From an uncultured Prolixibacteraceae bacterium (GTDB taxonomy: Bacteria; Bacteroidota; Bacteroidia; Bacteroidales; Prolixibacteraceae), in the NCBI GenBank assembly GCA_903834475.1, contig CAILJH010000035.1, forward strand, positions 1 to 64,000: a stretch of DNA of 64,000 nt, written 5' to 3'. The first letter of the stretch is position 1. The number at the start of each line of letters is the position of its first letter. The notes below the pieces were generated by a model that was given only the letters and a program-made list of their open reading frames with translations, was not told where the DNA came from and did not search any database. Both the position numbers and the translations under genes were made by a program. Below, piece after piece: positions 5,244 to 51,329 of this stretch.

Positions 5244-6041
5244 ATGATGCGACTTCTGGTTGTTGAAGGGAACCGAAAAGAAACCTGGCAGGAACGCGAG
5301 GCTCGTGGTGGTGTGGCCTATCACAAGCGTTTCAGGTCTATGCTAAAGATTTTACAGCCTGAAGCAGAAGTGGAAGTCGTTTTCCCGGCTGATGAGGAAT
5401 CAACTCTGCCAACAATCGATCAGCTTAAAACCTTTGACGGAGTACTTTGGACCGGAAGTTCACTTTACATTCAGGATCAAACTGCGGCAGTCCTGCGGCA
5501 GCTGGCATTTGCAGATGATGTTTTCGAAAGTGGGGTTCCTTTCTACGGAAGTTGCTGGGGTTTGCAAATTGCAGCGGTGGTGGCCGGTGGTAAAGTTGGA
5601 CCAAATCCAAAAGGGCGCGAAATCGGAATAACACAACCCATCGAATTAACCGCCGAAGGTCGGAAACATCCCTGTTTTCAGGGAAGAAAAGAAAAATTCA
5701 ATGCACTATGTGTTCATCTGGATGAAGTAGTGAAGCTTCCGGAGAATTCGGTTGTTCTGGCCGGGAATGAACACTCGGCGGTTCAGGCATTATCGTTCAG
5801 GTATAAAAATTCGGAGTTTTTCGGGGTTCAGTACCACCCGGAATTTCTGGTGTCGGATATGGTATTTATTATCCGGTTTCTATCTGAATTGTTAATTTCT
5901 GAAGGTTTGTTTCAATCGGAAGAATTGGTTGAAGCATTGGCATTGAAGCTTGAAGACCAAAGCAGCTTGCCGGAATGTGTTACCAATTATTTGCTTCATA
6001 CCCAGGACGTCAAATACTGGCTGGATGGTTTGAAAAGATGA
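5244..6041 (+). CDS. class I glutamine amidotransferase-like gamma-glutamyl hydrolase
   Basis: Stand-alone class I amidotransferase domain, 265 residues. The nucleophile elbow YGSCWG gives Cys104 and GVQYHPEF gives His198 and Glu200, so the triad is complete. Two ATGs in tandem (5244, 5247) follow a purine-rich AGAAGGA; either could be used. No synthetase domain is attached, as in PuuD-type gamma-glutamyl hydrolases, so it may release glutamate from the oxidised gamma-glutamyl product and close the pathway begun by the ligase. It is the last gene of the rightward operon, and its stop is separated by a single base from the stop of the oppositely oriented permease. A general GMP-synthase-like amidotransferase of unknown target is the alternative. 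Confidence 0.85.
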   Translation: MMRLLVVEGNRKETWQEREARGGVAYHKRFRSMLKILQPEAEVEVVFPADEESTLPTIDQLKTFDGVLWTGSSLYIQDQTAAVLRQLAFADDVFESGVPFYGSCWGLQIAAVVAGGKVGPNPKGREIGITQPIELTAEGRKHPCFQGRKEKFNALCVHLDEVVKLPENSVVLAGNEHSAVQALSFRYKNSEFFGVQYHPEFLVSDMVFIIRFLSELLISEGLFQSEELVEALALKLEDQSSLPECVTNYLLHTQDVKYWLDGLKR

Positions 6042-32857: not shown

Positions 32858-33283
32858 TTATTTAACCACAGATCTTAAATATTCAAGTACCGATTTCGCC
32901 TGAGCCTGATTTAGTCCGGGATCAGTCATAACGATGTTGTTATACTTAACGATCAGTGCTTTGATATAGGGGTCTGACTTCTGCATTCCCGAGGTGTTTA
33001 ACATCAGATTCAGGATGAATTCCGGGGCACGGTCTTTGGCAATATTCCGGAGTGGCGGACCTATCTTCAGTTGATCCAATTCGTGGCAAAGTGCACAAGT
33101 ATTGGTGAAAATAGTTTTCCCCTGGCTTACCAATTTAGCATCGATGGGGCCAAGTGTGATAGTTTTGATGGGACCGACCCCCAAATCTTTTATGTCATAT
33201 TTCGGTTGGGCAATGGTCGCACCAATGCAAAGAATGAATGTAACGGCCAAAGTAAAAATTGAAATGATAAGCTTGTTTTTCAT
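32858..33283 (-). CDS. periplasmic monohaem c-type cytochrome
   Basis: 141 residues; signal peptide 1-25 (cut near IAQ), then one CXXCH (Cys63, Cys66, His67) and a C-terminal helix region SVLEYLRSVVK typical of class I cytochromes c. A Met in the NTSGM or NIVMTD region may be the axial ligand. It starts 11 bases after the stop of the cytochrome-barrel gene at 33295 on the same strand, so the two are co-transcribed. It probably accepts electrons in the periplasm from that outer-membrane partner; this is inference from context. Soluble, not lipidated. Confidence 0.9.
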   Translation of the reverse strand: MKNKLIISIFTLAVTFILCIGATIAQPKYDIKDLGVGPIKTITLGPIDAKLVSQGKTIFTNTCALCHELDQLKIGPPLRNIAKDRAPEFILNLMLNTSGMQKSDPYIKALIVKYNNIVMTDPGLNQAQAKSVLEYLRSVVK

Positions 33284-33294
33284 GGTATATAATA

Positions 33295-34656
33295 TTAGAA
33301 ATTAAACCAGGCTAAGAGGTAAATAGTATTGTTATGAGCTGCATTTCTACCTGCTCCATCGTAATTAACAGAGTTACCATCAAATTTGTTGTACGCAACA
33401 TACTGAATTGAAAATTTGGTATTGTAAAAGGGCAGATATTCGATTTGATAAATTAAACCGCTGCTATTTGGTTTGTTGTTCAAACTTCCAATATTGGTAT
33501 CTTCTGAACCCGACCGATTAAAATAGCAGACGGTGGCTCCCAGACCATTTTTCAAATACAGGTTTCCATCGACTTTAAATGAATTAAAGTTGTATTTAGA
33601 TGAAGTTAAAGTTGAATCTTCCCGGTTTTCGGTTTCTTTAATCAGCGAAGAATGCAAAGTCAACGACCCGACATTCATTGTATGTGCGTACTGGAAATCG
33701 AAACCGAGATCGGTAAAATTATCCTTTGGCCCATTAATCCCAGTCTGGAAATGGTTGGAATGAATTCCAAAGGTTCCCAGTGCAGCATAGTTATTGCCCC
33801 ACGAATGTTGAAGAGCAACTCTCCAGTACGGAGCAACTCCGTCGATTGTCATTAGAGTTGTAGCATCAGCAGGGTTTGCAGCACCTTGCTGACAAGTTCT
33901 GTAAAGGGTTAATTCTGTAAATAAGAAGTTGTTATATAAAGAATAAGCTCCTAACCCGGCAACTTGCATGCCCATATTTTCTAAGATAGTCGATTTTGTG
34001 GGTGAGTTTGCTGCTGGTGAAGACGCGTATGGGAAACCCCAGGCGGAAGTAGTATTCCAGCCATCCTGTACTGTTGGATTGTTGTTTAAAGTAATTCCGT
34101 AACCCAGACTTTTTCCGCCAATATTAGTTTGATTAGCATATCTGAGATCTGCATTATCCATTCCAAAGCTTACTCCATCATAGGTTGTTTGTATAAAAGT
34201 ACCAATATGAGGTGCAATTTGCCCGGCATAAAACAAGCTAAACTGCTGTGGAAAGGCTACTGAATTGTTTTGAACACCCGCGTTATCTTTTGCAATATGC
34301 GTGAATGAAGTTTGTATCATGGCCGAAATAGGCAAGGCATCGAGTAATTTTAGTCTGGTTACTTTATCGCTGTCTTCTTTTACATCGATAGTTTTTGCCA
34401 TAGTCATGGTATAGCCATTCAATTTAAACTGACGACCAAAAGGTGTAAGTTCCGGAAACGAATAATGGCAGGCAGTACACGACATCCCGGTTTGCCTGGC
34501 AAAACTGGGCAGGGCTTCTGCCACACCAGCGCTTATAAGAGATACGAGCACAATGATTAACACTTTGTAAATGTTAATTCTGGCTTTTGAAGTTCCAATA
34601 CTTTTTATTGAACTAATTGATCCACTACATCTTTCCATTTGTAAAAATCTTTTCAT
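33295..34656 (-). CDS. fused monohaem cytochrome-outer membrane barrel, Cyc2-like
   Basis: 453-residue exported protein; the first ATG gives a long positively charged leader, and the hydrophobic segment IYKVLIIVLVSLISAGVAEA at 29-48 then acts as the signal, so the true start may be later. Just after it: LPSFARQTGMSCTACHYSFP with CXXCH at Cys60, Cys63, His64, then FGRQFKLNGYTM, the pattern seen in Cyc2-type cytochrome-porins. The remaining ~370 residues are rich in alternating aromatic beta-strands and end in Phe (LLAWFNF), as outer-membrane barrels do. Predicted role: moving electrons across the outer membrane. Cyc2 oxidises Fe(II), but whether this homologue does is unknown. A soluble cytochrome follows in the operon. 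Confidence 0.78.
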   Translation of the reverse strand: MKRFLQMERCSGSISSIKSIGTSKARINIYKVLIIVLVSLISAGVAEALPSFARQTGMSCTACHYSFPELTPFGRQFKLNGYTMTMAKTIDVKEDSDKVTRLKLLDALPISAMIQTSFTHIAKDNAGVQNNSVAFPQQFSLFYAGQIAPHIGTFIQTTYDGVSFGMDNADLRYANQTNIGGKSLGYGITLNNNPTVQDGWNTTSAWGFPYASSPAANSPTKSTILENMGMQVAGLGAYSLYNNFLFTELTLYRTCQQGAANPADATTLMTIDGVAPYWRVALQHSWGNNYAALGTFGIHSNHFQTGINGPKDNFTDLGFDFQYAHTMNVGSLTLHSSLIKETENREDSTLTSSKYNFNSFKVDGNLYLKNGLGATVCYFNRSGSEDTNIGSLNNKPNSSGLIYQIEYLPFYNTKFSIQYVAYNKFDGNSVNYDGAGRNAAHNNTIYLLAWFNF

Positions 34657-35098
34657 TTTAAATGTTTTAGCGTTATCAATAATAAATCGGGTTTAAGTTG
34701 CAAGAATACGCATATTTCAGGATTAAATAAATCAATAATGAGATTTATATCATTTTTTATTTACAAAATGAGTTTTTAGAATACGATACAGTGTCAAAAA
34801 GTTGAACTTATCTAAATGTCAATTTCAACTAAAGTTCAAATACTTATTCATTTGCCAATATTAAATTCAGGTACTCCCTGTGTTTTATATATGATGCTTT
34901 TTAGATCTGCTACTTTAAATCATGATAAGTATTAAATCAAAACAATCCATGTACACATTTAGTTTTCCGAAGATTTCAAGCGTTGTGTCTTTCCCTTTTT
35001 TTATCAACAATCTACTTTTATGGCATCGAAAATGATATTTTTACTTTCCTGAAATTGGGGGTTTAAGGAGAAATTTATTTTTGATACAACGCGCTGAT
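34657..35098. other. divergent AT-rich intergenic region
   Basis: About 440 bases between the cytochrome-barrel gene (leftward) and dnaE (rightward). AT-rich with no gene; AATGAGATTTATATCATT near 34738 has weak symmetry, and AGTTGAAC/TTCAACT near 34800-34830 is a poor inverted pair. Promoters for both sides must lie here, but no exact TAnnTTTG box was found. An AAGGAG stands at 35065-35070. Confidence 0.4.
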
Positions 35099-38000
35099 AT
35101 GATTCCATTTACACATTTACATGTTCACTCTCAATACTCTATTCTGGATGGAGCAGCCAGTGTTAAAGGCCTGATTGCAAAAGCCAAAGCAGATGGCATG
35201 ACAGCCCTGGCTTTGACTGATCATGGAAATATGTTTGGAGCAAAAGAATTTTACGATGTGTGTAAAAAAGAAGGGATCAAACCCATCATTGGATGTGAAA
35301 CCTACGTTGCCGAAACCTCGCGTCACAGCAAAAAAGACGCGAAAGTTGACCGCTCGGGTTACCATTTGATTTTGCTGGCCAAAAACCTGGTTGGTTACCG
35401 GAATCTACTCAAGCTGGTGTCAGCTGCCTATACCGAAGGGTTTTACTACAAACCCCGGATCGACAAGGAACTGCTCGAAAAATATCACGAAGGACTGATT
35501 ATTTCTTCGGCCTGTCTGGGTGGCGAAGTTCCACAACACATCATGGCCGGACATCTTAACGATGCCGATGAGACGATTCAATGGTTTAAATCGGTTTTCG
35601 GCGAAGATTTTTACCTGGAACTGCAAAGGCATCCGTCAACTTTACCCGAAATGAGGCGGAATGTATATGAAAGCCAGGTTCTGGTAAATACTCAAATGCT
35701 CGAACTGGCCAAAAAACATCAGGTAAAACTCATTTGCACCAACGACATTCATTTCATCAACGAGGAAGATGCCGACGCGCACGATTTGCTCATTTGCCTC
35801 AATACCGGTAAGGATCTGGACGATCCGGCCCGGATGCGTTACACCAAACAGGAGTGGTTTAAAACCACTGCCGAAATGAATGCATTGTTTGCAGATGTTC
35901 CTGAAGCATTGATCAATACACAGGAAATCACAGATAAGATCGAATCCTATGATTTAAACTCCTCGCCAATCATGCCTCTTTTTCCTATTCCTGAAGATTT
36001 CGGGAAACTGGATGATTACCGTGCCCGATTCAATGAAGAAATGTTGCGCGAAGAATTTGGTGAGGAAGCTTTCAAAGATCAGGGAGGATACGATAAAGTA
36101 GTGAGGGTAAAACTCGAATCCGATTACCTCGCTCTCCTGACTTGGAATGGGGCTAAAGTGAGGTATCCGCAACCATTTTCAGATGAGCTCCTCGAACGCA
36201 TTGAATTCGAATTGAATACAATCAAGACCATGGGTTTCCCGGGCTACTTCCTGATTACCCAGGATTTCATCAACGAGGCGCGGAAGATGGACGTGTTGGT
36301 TGGACCGGGCCGTGGTTCGGCTGCCGGGTCGGTGGTATCATATTGCGTGGGTATTACCAACATCGATCCGTTAAAGTACGATTTGCTGTTCGAGCGGTTT
36401 CTGAATCCCGACCGTGTTTCGATGCCTGACGTGGATATTGACTTCGATGATGATGGACGCCAGAAAGTGCTTGATTACGTGACCAATAAATACGGAAAAG
36501 ACAAAGTAGCTCACATTTGTACCTTCGGGACCATGGCCACCAAAATGGCAATCAAAGATGTTGCGCGGGTTCTGAAACTTCCGCTTTCGGAGGCCGACCG
36601 CCTGACTAAAATGGTTCCGGATACACCGAAAATGAATTTTTTTACTGCATATAAAGAAAGTCCGGAACTGAAAGCCGAGTTGAAATCATCCAACGAATTG
36701 ATCCGGACAACCTTGAAATTTGCGCAGACACTCGAAGGTTCGGTGCGTCAGACTGGCGTCCACGCCTGTGGAATCCTGATCAGCCGCGATCCGCTGACCG
36801 ACCATATTCCGGTGATGCTCTCCAAGGACGACGAAAACCTTCTGACGACCCAATTCGACGGGAAATATGTAGAAGACATTGGTTTGCTCAAGATGGATTT
36901 TCTTGGACTCAAAACACTTTCCGTTATCAAGGAAACGGTTGAAAATATCAAGCTTTCGCGCGGAATCACAGTCGATATGGACGATCTTCCCGAGAACGAT
37001 CCGCTCACGCTGGAACTTTTCAGCAATGGCGATACCACCGGTATTTTCCAGTTCGAGTCGCCCGGTATGAAAAAGCATTTGCGTAACCTGAAACCCAACC
37101 GTTTCGAGGATCTCGTCGCCATGAACGCGCTTTACCGTCCGGGACCTATGGAGAATGTTCCATCGTACATCAAGCGAAAACATGGTCAGGAGAAAATTGA
37201 ATATGAAAGTCCATTGATGGAACCCTACCTGAACGACACCTACGGAATTACCGTTTATCAGGAACAGGTGATGCTTCAGTCGCGGGCGCTGGCTGGTTTT
37301 ACCCGTGGCGATTCCGATTCGCTCCGCAAAGCGATGGGTAAAAAGCAGATTTATCAGATGGATAAACTGAAAGAAAAGTTTCATGTGGGCTGCATGAATA
37401 ATCCAAAGTTTATTGAAGGTTGCCTTGTTGGAAACAAAGATCCGGATAAGCTGATCGATAAAATATGGAAAGACTGGGAAGCATTTGCCAGTTATGCCTT
37501 CAACAAATCGCATTCGGTTTGTTATGCCGCGGTAGCTTACCAGACCGGCTATTTAAAAGCACATTATCCGGCCGAATTTATGGCTGCCAACATGAGCCGG
37601 AACCTCAGCAACATTACTGAAATTTCGAAGCTGATGGAAGAATGCAAGCGGATGAAGATGAATGTTCTGGGACCTGATGTGAGCGAGAGTTATACCAAAT
37701 TTACTGTAAACAAATCGGGAAATATCCGCTTTGGAATGGCTGCAGTGAAAGGTGTGGGTGAAGGTGCCGTTCAGGATATCATCAAAGCGCGGAAAGGCGG
37801 CACGTTCAAGGATATTTATGATTTTGTGGAACGGGTGAACCTTCAGTCGGTCAACAAAAAAAACATCGAAGCACTGGCCATGGCCGGAGCATTCGATTCA
37901 TTTAAAAAACATACCCGAAGCCAGTTTTTTGCTCCGGATGACAACGACCTGACGTTTGTCGAAAAGCTGATCAGGTACGGCAACAAGATGCAATACGAGA

Positions 38001-38740
38001 GCAACAACATGCAGCCGTCGCTTTTTGGTGAAATCATGGCAGGACAGTCGGTTCAGAAGCCCGAACCTCAGCCGGTTCCGGAATGGCCGGATTTGATTCT
38101 GCTCGAAAAAGAGAAAAATCTGGTCGGTGTTTACCTCACTTCGCATCCGCTCGACCGGTATAAAGTCGAAATTGAAACCCTGGCGACCAAAGATATTACG
38201 TTTAAAGATCTGAACAGCAACATTGATGCGCTGAAAGGCAGGGAAATGACGTTTGTCGGGATGGTGACCGAAGCGCGAGAAAGTTTTGGCAAAACCGGAA
38301 AACCATACAGCCAGATTGTTCTGACCGATTATACCGATTCGTATAAATTCTTTTTCTTTGCCAAAGACTATGTCGAGTTTGGCAAGTATTGCAAACCCGG
38401 ACTCTACCTGATGGTTAAAGGTTTGGTTCAAAACCGTTATGGAGGCGATCAGCTCGAATTTAAGGTGAGCCGGATCGAACTGATGGAAGAAATCCGTGAG
38501 AAATACTTTAAAAGCATTACGGTGAAAATCCCACTTACTGCTCTTACAGGCGAAGTTATTTCCGATCTTGAACGGCTGACCTTGAATAGCAAGGGAAAGT
38601 CGTTGCTACGATTTGATATCATTGATCTCGAAACAAAAATGGTGGTTAATCTGTTTTCAAGAAATACAAGGATTGAAATCACAGACGAATTGCTTTCGTA
38701 TTTTGAGAAACATGATGATCTTGTTTTTAAAATTAATTAG
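35099..38740 (+). CDS. dnaE: DNA polymerase III alpha subunit
   Basis: Replicative polymerase, 1213 residues from ATG 35099. A TTG at 35081 lies 10 bases after AAGGAG and is a possible alternative start, but the ATG begins at the conserved MIPFTHLHVHSQYSILDG. The PHP domain covers the first ~290 residues (HVHSQYS, DHGNM); the polymerase core holds GPGRGSAAGSVVSY and the catalytic Asp-rich PDVDIDFDDDGR; then the tandem HhH and an OB-fold (ALKGREMTFVGMV). It extends the chromosome with the sliding clamp. Single-gene unit followed 58 bases later by trxA. Confidence 0.97.
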   Translation: MIPFTHLHVHSQYSILDGAASVKGLIAKAKADGMTALALTDHGNMFGAKEFYDVCKKEGIKPIIGCETYVAETSRHSKKDAKVDRSGYHLILLAKNLVGYRNLLKLVSAAYTEGFYYKPRIDKELLEKYHEGLIISSACLGGEVPQHIMAGHLNDADETIQWFKSVFGEDFYLELQRHPSTLPEMRRNVYESQVLVNTQMLELAKKHQVKLICTNDIHFINEEDADAHDLLICLNTGKDLDDPARMRYTKQEWFKTTAEMNALFADVPEALINTQEITDKIESYDLNSSPIMPLFPIPEDFGKLDDYRARFNEEMLREEFGEEAFKDQGGYDKVVRVKLESDYLALLTWNGAKVRYPQPFSDELLERIEFELNTIKTMGFPGYFLITQDFINEARKMDVLVGPGRGSAAGSVVSYCVGITNIDPLKYDLLFERFLNPDRVSMPDVDIDFDDDGRQKVLDYVTNKYGKDKVAHICTFGTMATKMAIKDVARVLKLPLSEADRLTKMVPDTPKMNFFTAYKESPELKAELKSSNELIRTTLKFAQTLEGSVRQTGVHACGILISRDPLTDHIPVMLSKDDENLLTTQFDGKYVEDIGLLKMDFLGLKTLSVIKETVENIKLSRGITVDMDDLPENDPLTLELFSNGDTTGIFQFESPGMKKHLRNLKPNRFEDLVAMNALYRPGPMENVPSYIKRKHGQEKIEYESPLMEPYLNDTYGITVYQEQVMLQSRALAGFTRGDSDSLRKAMGKKQIYQMDKLKEKFHVGCMNNPKFIEGCLVGNKDPDKLIDKIWKDWEAFASYAFNKSHSVCYAAVAYQTGYLKAHYPAEFMAANMSRNLSNITEISKLMEECKRMKMNVLGPDVSESYTKFTVNKSGNIRFGMAAVKGVGEGAVQDIIKARKGGTFKDIYDFVERVNLQSVNKKNIEALAMAGAFDSFKKHTRSQFFAPDDNDLTFVEKLIRYGNKMQYESNNMQPSLFGEIMAGQSVQKPEPQPVPEWPDLILLEKEKNLVGVYLTSHPLDRYKVEIETLATKDITFKDLNSNIDALKGREMTFVGMVTEARESFGKTGKPYSQIVLTDYTDSYKFFFFAKDYVEFGKYCKPGLYLMVKGLVQNRYGGDQLEFKVSRIELMEEIREKYFKSITVKIPLTALTGEVISDLERLTLNSKGKSLLRFDIIDLETKMVVNLFSRNTRIEITDELLSYFEKHDDLVFKIN

Positions 38741-48538: not shown

Positions 48539-48676
48539 TGCGGTTTATTTTTGAAGTTCTGGCAAGTGTTAGTTCATGAAATATCAGGCAATCCACACAA
48601 AAGTATTAAAATTGGAAGAGAAGCAAAATTGATTTTGTACTTTGGACAGATTAAAATTCAAATTTTAACTGCCTTT

Positions 48677-49222
48677 ATGACTGAAATCAATCGTCGCATC
48701 TTTATAAAATCAGCTGGTCTGGCCTTCGGTAGCGTGTTGCTTTTCCCGGCATGCCTGAAACAAAGCAGCATTTATCATTTCTTTTCTAATGAGGAAGCAC
48801 TTTGCATGATAGCCCTTTGCGAGCAAATCATTCCTAAAGACAGTTCGCCCGGAGCCACCAATGCCGGAGTAATTTTCTACATCGACAAGCAGTTGTCCGG
48901 AATTTTTCAATACGATCAGGAAACTTACCGGACAGGTATTAAAAACCTTCAGGATTATTGTTCTAACAAATCAGGAAAATCGTTCGAAAAGCATTCTGCG
49001 GAGGACCAAATCCAGATTATGAAGTTGATGGAGTCGAACCAAATGAGCGAAACCGAATGGTCCGGGAAAAATCCGGCGAACTTCTTTAATCTGTTATTAT
49101 CTCATACCATGCAGGGTTTTTATGGCTCGCCAATCCATGGCGGAAATAAAGACAATATCAGTTTCAAGATGCTTCGAATCGACTATCCTTTGGTAGTCGA
49201 CCAAAACCAAATTAGATCCTGA
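48677..49222 (+). CDS. gluconate 2-dehydrogenase subunit 3-like, Tat-exported
   Basis: 181 residues from the ATG at 48677. The N terminus has a twin-arginine signal (NRRIFIKSAG) followed by a hydrophobic stretch with LLFPACL, perhaps a lipobox. The mature part has the helical hallmark of the subunit 3 family: EALCMIALCEQIIPKDSSPGA, DKQLSG, and the HTMQGFYGSPIHGGN stretch near the end. Subunit 3 proteins escort and activate FAD-containing GMC dehydrogenases exported by the Tat route. The GMC gene lies just downstream (49674), with a small lipoprotein gene between. Confidence 0.87.
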   Translation: MTEINRRIFIKSAGLAFGSVLLFPACLKQSSIYHFFSNEEALCMIALCEQIIPKDSSPGATNAGVIFYIDKQLSGIFQYDQETYRTGIKNLQDYCSNKSGKSFEKHSAEDQIQIMKLMESNQMSETEWSGKNPANFFNLLLSHTMQGFYGSPIHGGNKDNISFKMLRIDYPLVVDQNQIRS

Positions 49223-49259
49223 ACGATCCAATTTTATGAACTTGATAATTTCAAAACAG

Positions 49260-49547
49260 ATGAAAACAAAAAATCGTGTTCTGCTGAGCATTTTTGTGGT
49301 TGTGGCGTTGTTCTTTTTTTCTTCATGCGCTACGGTTCAACAAGTTGATGACTGTACAAGCGGACATACCTATGGATTTCTGGGTGGATTATGGCATGGA
49401 ATTATTGCCCCGGTTTCCTTTATCGGTAGCCTTGTCAGCGATCATATTGCCGTTTGGGCCGTCAATAACAATGGCGGCTGGTACACCTTTGGATTTCTGA
49501 TTGGTGTCGGTGGTCTGGGATTTGGTGGGAGCAAAGCTTCCAGATAA
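49260..49547 (+). CDS. small lipoprotein between dehydrogenase genes
   Basis: 95 residues from the ATG at 49260 (a start 24 bases upstream is also open). Signal II: KTKNRVLLSIFVVVALFFFSSC with Cys near residue 22 as lipidation site. The mature protein is small, Gly-rich and has two hydrophobic stretches (FLGGLWHGIIAPVSFIGSLV and GWYTFGFLIGVGGLGFGG). No known family. It is cotranscribed in order between the subunit 3 and GMC genes, so it may anchor or couple that complex, but this is speculation. Confidence 0.7.
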   Translation: MKTKNRVLLSIFVVVALFFFSSCATVQQVDDCTSGHTYGFLGGLWHGIIAPVSFIGSLVSDHIAVWAVNNNGGWYTFGFLIGVGGLGFGGSKASR

Positions 49548-49673
49548 TCCATGTCAGAAATGAGGAAAATGGAAAGAGGAAAAGCAATCGGTTTCACGGA
49601 TTCTATGAGTTCGGAATAGTTTCCTTTTCAGTTTAGACTCCAACAATATTTATCTAATTTACAAAATGTCTTC

Positions 49674-51329
49674 ATGGCAAATAAACATGTCAATGCAATT
49701 ATAGTCGGTGCTGGTGCTGGTGGAGGAATTGTCGCCAAAGAGCTTGCCACCAAAGGACTTTCGGTAGTTCTCTTCGAACGTGGTGAATGGCCTAACTATG
49801 ATGAGCATCCAAACGATGAACTGATTTCGCAGCGCACTGAGGTGCTCGGTTCTCCTTTTGGTCCCGATCACATCAAAAATCCCCGAACGTTAACTTATAA
49901 AGGTGGGAGCAAGCAGATTGTAACTCCAATCCACGGCAATTACAACAACGTTGCAGCTTGTGTCGGTTCCGGAACCGTGAGTTACGGTGCAATGGCCTGG
50001 CGCTTTATGCAGGAGGATTTCAAGCTTAAAACAGTTTACGGTTCGGTAGAAGGCTCAACTTTGGATGACTGGCCGATTACTTATGAAGAACTTGAACCTT
50101 ATTATGAAAAAGCTGAATGGGAAATCGGTGTTTCAGGTGACGATACGCAAAATCCCTTTGCACCTCCGCGAAAGAAAAAGCAACCCATGCCACCTTTCGA
50201 ATACAATGCAGAAGCCAAAGTTTTGTACGATGCCTCCAAGCGACTAGGACTGCACCCGTTTCCGATACCCATGCTCAGGAATTCAGTTCCAAACAATAAC
50301 CGCGAAGCATGCATCCGGAACCTCACCTGCTGCGGATTTGCCTGCCCGGTTGATGCCAAAAACGGAACCCAGAATACGGTGATACCGATTGCCATAAAAA
50401 CCGGAAACTGCGATTTAAGAACTGGCAGCAAAGTCGTTGAAATCATGATTGACGATCGCGGGAAAGCAACTGGTGTCAAATATTTTGATAAGGATGACAA
50501 GCCACAGATACAAACAGCTGATGTGGTCGTTGTGGCTGGTGCAGCCATCGAGACAGCCCGTTTGCTGCTTAATTCGAAATCCAGACTTTTCCCCAATGGT
50601 GCCGGGAATAATTCCGACTGGGTAGGGCGCAATCTGGCTGGTCATGCCTATACCGGGGCTTACGGATTGTTTGATTATGACATTCTTGATTTTGCCGGAC
50701 CAGGTGCCACCATTGCCTGGTGTGATTTCAACCATCACAATCCGGGTATTATTGGCGGTGGTTTACTTGCCAACGAATTTAACCGGCTGCCCTATTTGTA
50801 CACCGGAATCCGGCCTCCCGGCTCTGCCCGATGGGGAAAGGATCACAAGGAATTCCAGCGCAGCATGTATCACCGAACTGCCCAGATAGTTGGACCAATT
50901 CAGGAAATGCCCATGTACGAATCTCGGGTAACTGTTGATCCGGAAGTAAAAGATTTCTGGGGCATTCCTGTTGCTTCCCTTTCGGGCGACCGTCATCCGT
51001 TGGATTATGAGCATTGCAAGTTTTTATCGGCCAAAGCGGAAGCCATTTTAAAGGAAGCCGGAGCATACCAGACCTGGCAAAGTATTGGAGGACAAGGTGG
51101 GCCAAGTGGTGGTCAGCATCAAAACGGAACTGCCCGCATGGGAAACGATAAAAAAACTTCAGTAGTAAACAAAAACGGACAAATTCATGAGATTGACAAC
51201 CTGTTTGTTGCCGATGGCAGTGCGATGGTCAATGGCGGAGGATTCAATCCTGCCCTTACCATCATGGCTCTTGGATTCCGGGTTGGCGAATACATTGCCA
51301 AGAACTTTGCATCAATCCGGGTTACGTAA
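49674..51329 (+). CDS. GMC-family FAD oxidoreductase (gluconate dehydrogenase type)
   Basis: 551 residues. Flavoprotein of the glucose-methanol-choline family: FAD-binding AIIVGAGAGGGIVAKELA at the N terminus, GSGTVSYGAMAWRF, the CCGFACPVDAKNG cysteine-rich loop typical of sugar-acid dehydrogenases, and the C-terminal catalytic signature ending GTARMGND and VADGSAMVNGGGFNPALTIM. Oxidises a polyol or sugar acid and passes electrons through partner cytochromes. No signal peptide is seen, consistent with piggyback export with the Tat-bearing small subunit. Substrate not determinable. Confidence 0.93.
   Translation: MANKHVNAIIVGAGAGGGIVAKELATKGLSVVLFERGEWPNYDEHPNDELISQRTEVLGSPFGPDHIKNPRTLTYKGGSKQIVTPIHGNYNNVAACVGSGTVSYGAMAWRFMQEDFKLKTVYGSVEGSTLDDWPITYEELEPYYEKAEWEIGVSGDDTQNPFAPPRKKKQPMPPFEYNAEAKVLYDASKRLGLHPFPIPMLRNSVPNNNREACIRNLTCCGFACPVDAKNGTQNTVIPIAIKTGNCDLRTGSKVVEIMIDDRGKATGVKYFDKDDKPQIQTADVVVVAGAAIETARLLLNSKSRLFPNGAGNNSDWVGRNLAGHAYTGAYGLFDYDILDFAGPGATIAWCDFNHHNPGIIGGGLLANEFNRLPYLYTGIRPPGSARWGKDHKEFQRSMYHRTAQIVGPIQEMPMYESRVTVDPEVKDFWGIPVASLSGDRHPLDYEHCKFLSAKAEAILKEAGAYQTWQSIGGQGGPSGGQHQNGTARMGNDKKTSVVNKNGQIHEIDNLFVADGSAMVNGGGFNPALTIMALGFRVGEYIAKNFASIRVT

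Follow-up and report, generated by a model that had tools for sequence, protein, structure and literature searches.

Two adjacent genes of an uncultured Prolixibacteraceae bacterium probably encode an Fe(II) electron-uptake module, in which a Cyc2-type porin would hand electrons to a small carrier and this in turn to oxidases; we assign this whole chain a probability of about 0.65. The genes lie in the window, i.e., the complete 64,000-nt stretch of DNA analyzed here. That the larger product, a 453-aa protein, belongs to the Cyc2 family is close to certain. Cyc2-family haem-porins let iron-oxidising bacteria take electrons from dissolved iron; Cyc2 serves as a marker of microbial iron oxidation, and its role outside the classical iron oxidisers is debatable. 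The core of the sequence-only reading, a Cyc2-type fused cytochrome-porin with a putative periplasmic partner, is borne out by the motif, the predicted fold, full-length homology, an invariant haem site, and the conserved pairing and co-occurrence of the two genes.

The gene for the Cyc2-like fused cytochrome-porin occupies positions 33295..34656 (minus strand) and was delimited as a 453-aa ORF with full-length orthologues and a 16-strand AF2 barrel. Downstream on the same strand, after a gap of 11 nt, lies the partner gene (32858..33283, minus strand), which was recognized from Pfam, phmmer and its conserved position as neighbor, and encodes a putatively exported monohaem cytochrome c of 141 aa and of the Rhodothermus marinus cytochrome c type. 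These two ORFs coincide exactly with the span 32858-34656 for which the pair had been proposed.

Cyc2 proteins have been defined by the motif AXPXFAR[Q/K][T/Y], a single CXXCH followed by PXL, a minimum length of 365 aa and a porin part predicted to have 16 strands (Keffer et al., PMC8406198). The defining motif is complete in the 453-aa protein (ALPSFARQT-GMS-CTACH-YSF-PEL). An N-terminal extension and an apparent hydrophobic export signal were read from the sequence at residues 1-47 (VLIIVLVSLISAGVAEA; 34516..34656, minus strand), the hydrophobic stretch ending, as judged by eye, in AEA just before LPSF. Behind this leader stands ALPSFARQTGMSCTACHYSFPELTPFGRQFKLNGYT, and the last residue is Phe. 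Alignments against the consensus of PMC8406198 placed the cytochrome segment ALPSFARQTGMSCTACHYSFPELTPFGRQFKLNGY at residues 48-82 (34411..34515, minus strand). In it, A48-L-P50-S-F-A-R-Q-T56 lies upstream of CTACH, the predicted haem c attachment site (residues 60-64; 34465..34479, minus strand), and P68EL70 starts four residues after C60TACH64. The motifs FARQTGMSCTACH and FGRQFKLNGYT and the terminal Phe, on which the family call had first been based, are all present. The arrangement described as FARQTG-x2-CXXCH needs a small correction, in that three residues (GMS), not two, separate FARQT from the first Cys, as they do in the Chlorobiaceae sequences. Each of 60/60 homologues carries exactly one CXXCH, with C60, C63 and H64 invariant, and a degenerate haem site was therefore rejected. 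The pattern of our collection scan demanded only the first Cys of CXXCH, and relatives recovered by plain similarity also keep the entire haem site. The length (453 aa; orthologues mostly 430-490 aa) lies above the lower bound. An MtrAB-type porin-cytochrome complex was also considered and rejected, as here a single haem would be fused to the porin.

Searches of Pfam, NCBIfam and PDB sequences yielded no family for the 453-aa protein, weak matches to FkbH_N, LptF and insulin-degrading enzyme being ascribed to chance, and a PDB profile search with the homologue alignment gave no match. The AF2 (AlphaFold) model built with 60 homologues was confident (pLDDT 86, pTM 0.86; with only 12 homologues, pLDDT 50) and shows short helices around the haem site, then 16 long strands as counted. 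What had been called a barrel-like remainder is thus a predicted 16-stranded beta-barrel, placed by the model and VIA-align at residues 110-452 (33301..34329, minus strand). Ranks 1-3 in VIA-align were OprO 4rjw (Z 22.8), OprP 2o4v (Z 22.7) and OprO 4rjx (Z 22.4), with OmpC/OmpF-type porins within one Z unit of them, and Foldseek gave E about 1e-8 to OmpF-type porins. Since the OmpC/OmpF-type porins score nearly as high, the structure search supports a 16-strand porin and is consistent with an OprP kinship of the model. OprO 4RJW and OprP 2O4V were also the templates for the predicted porin of Mariprofundus Cyc2PV-1 (PMC8406198). Neither a missing pore nor a set of homologues that are all non-redox, the two outcomes named beforehand as fatal to the sequence-only reading, was found: a porin is predicted, and the haem site is present in all 60 homologues.

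The partner protein matches Pfam Cytochrom_C (1.3e-9), and its best solved relative is the cytochrome c of R. marinus (3cp5; phmmer E 1.6e-26 over residues 34-140), which agrees with the original call of the next gene as a monohaem cytochrome c. Alignment with 3cp5 located its haem site CALCH at residues 63-67 (33083..33097, minus strand) and matched its M119 with Met100, which we take to be the axial haem ligand in the R. marinus protein. Similarity across the mature domain, the CXXCH site and the Met ligand position place it in the R. marinus type; it differs from the R. marinus cytochrome in being co-encoded with a Cyc2-like gene. A small co-oriented CXXCH gene adjoins the porin gene in 6/6 family relatives and at 36/43 loci of the wider clade, counts that overlap, as some genomes entered the set of loci twice; the background for small CXXCH genes is 85/1113 genes, a figure inflated by the partners themselves. 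Among the 36 wider-clade neighbors, 24 are of the R. marinus type and the rest are a different cytochrome, encoded upstream. A small cytochrome gene adjoins in 16/18 Chlorobiaceae, always upstream, and in 7/37 cases from Acidobacteriota and Pseudomonadota under the same narrow rule. Across 12 genomes, with relatedness ignored, the partner was found in 8/8 carriers, including one (G021) with only a porin fragment; three of the four non-carriers were without it and the fourth had only a 35% partial match.

The full porin gene was present in 4/23 genomes of the genus searched, the window's included, while a fifth (G021) has a 52-aa frame with a C-terminal match (35 residues, 54% identity). Being sporadic in the genus, the gene is therefore accessory. 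According to a genus-wide comparison of the region upstream of dnaE, the pair adjoins this gene in the window and G005 and lies elsewhere in G011, G012 and G019; no clean empty site could be defined, as the flanks vary. For dnaE itself (35081-38740), the listed TTG start is probably 18 bases early, the frame of relatives beginning with MIPFTHLH (window position 35099).

Orthologues are 58-72% identical in the genus and family and 44-47% in other Bacteroidota, in each case over the full length. In the named scan, Prolixibacteraceae and Bacteroidia MAGs ranked ahead of other Bacteroidetes, and these ahead of Acidobacteria and Gammaproteobacteria; full-length homologues were found in MAGs of Bacteroidota, Acidobacteriota and Pseudomonadota. 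One homologue (L069, 47% identity) belongs to a cultured Bacteroidota strain, Yeosuana aromativorans JCM 12862, and plasmid homologues with 32% identity occur in Acidithiobacillus ferrooxidans, beside a c-type cytochrome gene, and in Acidiphilium. A quick tree placed the window protein, with full support, in a set of 16 rows of its own group and united the Bacteroidota and Chlorobiota rows in one set (support 92), with the Acidobacteriota and Pseudomonadota rows as neighbors; its branches are long, so the deep joins are unsure. The Chlorobiaceae-type sequences, whose source genomes carry the FMO protein family in 10/10 tested, are of the kind grouped with known neutrophilic iron oxidisers. In this long-branched tree they are set apart by a stem with a length of 5.4 changes per column, and these Cyc2-like proteins share only 20-22% identity with the window protein. 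By both measures the protein does not group with the Chlorobiaceae (cluster-1-type) Cyc2, and because of this distance evidence from cluster-1 iron oxidases is not directly transferable. The 80 loci kept included none named as Mariprofundus, Gallionella or Leptospirillum. The published Cyc2 tree has long branches as well, and the function of cluster 3 is the most uncertain according to its authors (PMC8406198).

Several further loci came to light in these searches. A second family of about 400 aa with the motif IPAF(A/G)RKY-x3-CxxCH (L008:1477-2673, L009:748-1944, L010:1516-2715, also L027 and L038) occurs in the window's own bacterial family and branches very far away from the 453-aa protein; upstream of most of its members stands a gene encoding four or five CXXCH. 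The Bacteroidetes MAG SZUA-53 (L056) carries two tandem Cyc2-like genes, at 5372 and 7369. On the plasmid of A. ferrooxidans YQ-N3 (CP084173.1, L138:7890-10186), a Cyc2-like gene and a c-type cytochrome gene adjoin a transposase, and the match in Acidiphilium cryptum has the same extent, identity and score, which suggests a mobile module.

Within the window, as the sequence-only reading had stated, no respiratory gene adjoins the pair, whereas in relatives it does stand beside such genes, namely Qrc/ACIII-like, bc or cbb3 genes. In three Bacteroidetes MAGs (L058:9359-14679, L066:9319-15989, L070:9439-17004) the Cyc2-like gene and the gene for an R. marinus-type cytochrome c are followed by genes for a pentahaem QrcA-like, a molybdopterin QrcB-like and an FeS QrcC-like protein and by an NrfD gene, components of the kind known from the Qrc menaquinone reductase and alternative complex III. 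L012, L060, L067 and L073 show part of the same arrangement behind the pair. The NCBIfam matches in L070 to QrcA, QrcB, QrcC and DsrP/QrcD are all below curated cut-offs. The layout of L058, L066 and L070 looks like a single outer-membrane-to-menaquinone operon. In L066 and L070 the Qrc-like genes are followed by a gene for a protein with four CXXCH, and L070 also encodes a possible cupredoxin-like protein. Genes for a cytochrome b-c fusion, a Rieske protein and cytochrome oxidase subunit II lie near the pair in L059, and a cbb3-type cluster lies beside it in L075. At the Acidobacteriota loci (L082-L111), the Cyc2-like gene is repeatedly followed by two more genes, the first uncharacterised (about 185 aa) and the second (about 860 aa) encoding four CXXCH. 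For iron oxidisers, a route from Cyc2 through a periplasmic cytochrome to ACIII or bc1 and cbb3 has been proposed (PMC4643136), which the layouts in the relatives (pair with Qrc-like, bc or cbb3 genes) echo.

The window's pair differs from these relatives in having no Qrc-like neighbors. The MAG to which it belongs is 66% complete and carries on one contig (C30) a cbb3 cluster and an aa3/caa3-type cluster with a CXXCH-bearing CoxB-like subunit; therefore, acceptors for the carrier exist in the genome. In a search for QrcB in the carriers of the genus, all matches fell below the cut-off and were also seen in controls, so no Qrc is claimed for this genome.

On the preferred reading, the two genes would together make up a compact module for electron uptake. 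After export, the 453-aa protein would bind a single haem c covalently at CTACH, and its predicted 16-stranded porin of the Cyc2 family would sit in the outer membrane, its pore closed on the periplasmic side by the N-terminal haem segment. The donor, most likely Fe(II), would be small and dissolved; on entering the pore it would reduce this haem, which would pass the electrons on to the soluble periplasmic cytochrome c encoded by the second gene, and the latter may feed the caa3- and/or cbb3-type oxidases encoded in the genome. The putative module would probably supplement heterotrophic respiration rather than support autotrophy. Counting against this reading are the long stem to the Chlorobiaceae sequences with the low identity already given (20-22%), the near tie of generic porins in Z, the sporadic gene, and the want of an adjoining respiratory gene in the window.

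The same architecture could run inward with another donor, such as Mn(II), reduced humics, Cu(I) or some other small reduced solute. The identity of the donor is unreadable from sequence, Cyc2-like genes occur in many organisms not known as iron oxidisers, and among the carriers are a Melioribacter MAG with the title MnB_16 (L072) and marine and hydrothermal-type MAGs. Against this, several record titles indicate iron-rich samples, e.g., Lac Pavin (L043). Lac Pavin is a ferruginous lake. In addition, the biochemically tested members of the family oxidise Fe(II) (PMC8406198), and we regard a donor other than Fe(II) as unlikely. Slightly less probable again is an outward flow, in which the periplasmic cytochrome would reduce the porin-cytochrome and, when oxygen is limiting, electrons would reach Fe(III) chelates or humics. 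Many of the Prolixibacteraceae-type carriers are apparently lake MAGs, and export through Cyc2 or a porin-cytochrome has been suggested for humic-lake methylotrophs (PMC6344600). Yet a single haem near the periplasmic mouth would suit only a small substrate diffusing through the pore, as argued in PMC8406198, and the potential of Cyc2PV-1, about 208 mV (PMC8406198), is high for an electron exporter; moreover, a carrier of the R. marinus type together with caa3/cbb3 oxidases fits delivery to oxygen.

The fold, which by structure search is that of an ordinary 16-strand porin, would also suit a non-respiratory outer-membrane porin whose haem is structural or sensing and whose neighboring cytochrome serves something else, and the gene is not always found beside respiratory genes. 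Strict invariance of CXXCH, retention of a partner cytochrome across the clade though its type and side change, and respiratory complexes adjoining in several relatives make this very improbable. As an extension of Fe(II) uptake by the pair, we tentatively consider that Bacteroidota possess a Cyc2 lineage of their own with a dedicated R. marinus-type carrier, in some members with a complete co-encoded path to menaquinone (Cyc2-like protein, cytochrome c, Qrc-like complex), and that otherwise heterotrophic organisms gain energy from Fe(II), the pair itself being an accessory module that spreads; this wider proposal is possible but doubtful.

The window protein resembles the Cyc2 of clusters 1-3 (McAllister 2020; Keffer 2021), including A. 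ferrooxidans Cyc2 and Mariprofundus Cyc2PV-1, in its apparent export signal, N-terminal motif, predicted OprO/OprP-like porin, length and partner cytochrome. It differs from them in forming a separate lineage within Bacteroidota, in its low identity to the Chlorobiaceae Cyc2-like proteins (20-22%) and in its R. marinus-type partner. Plasmid-encoded Cyc2-like proteins (A. ferrooxidans YQ-N3, Caballeronia SBC1, Methylocystis MJC1) share full-length similarity (32-38%) and an adjacent c-type cytochrome gene, but these systems are from Pseudomonadota, and Methylocystis MJC1 has three cytochrome genes and Caballeronia SBC1 a HiPIP gene upstream.

Extracellular electron uptake had been expected to be notable in this phylum; that expectation is weakened, as Trout Bog (PMC6344600) and a hydrothermal ridge (PMC9769843) have already yielded Bacteroidetes MAGs with Cyc2 homologues. 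Within the literature covered, which was partial, no paper was found that links cyc2 with Prolixibacteraceae or, in Bacteroidota, with a Qrc-like operon. The fixed two-gene unit is small enough for expression and has a counterpart in a cultured strain, which allows the question of iron oxidation in Bacteroidota to be put, and the fixed pairing together with the respiratory-complex links of the relatives makes iron-powered respiration in this phylum directly testable. Should the reading be true, a large heterotrophic phylum that is usually omitted would count among the iron oxidisers of lakes and mine waters, and Cyc2 matches in MAGs would become interpretable.

Elsewhere in the window (48551-51329), a gene for a small protein is followed by one for a GMC-type oxidoreductase; by eye, the two resemble a gluconate-dehydrogenase-like pair.
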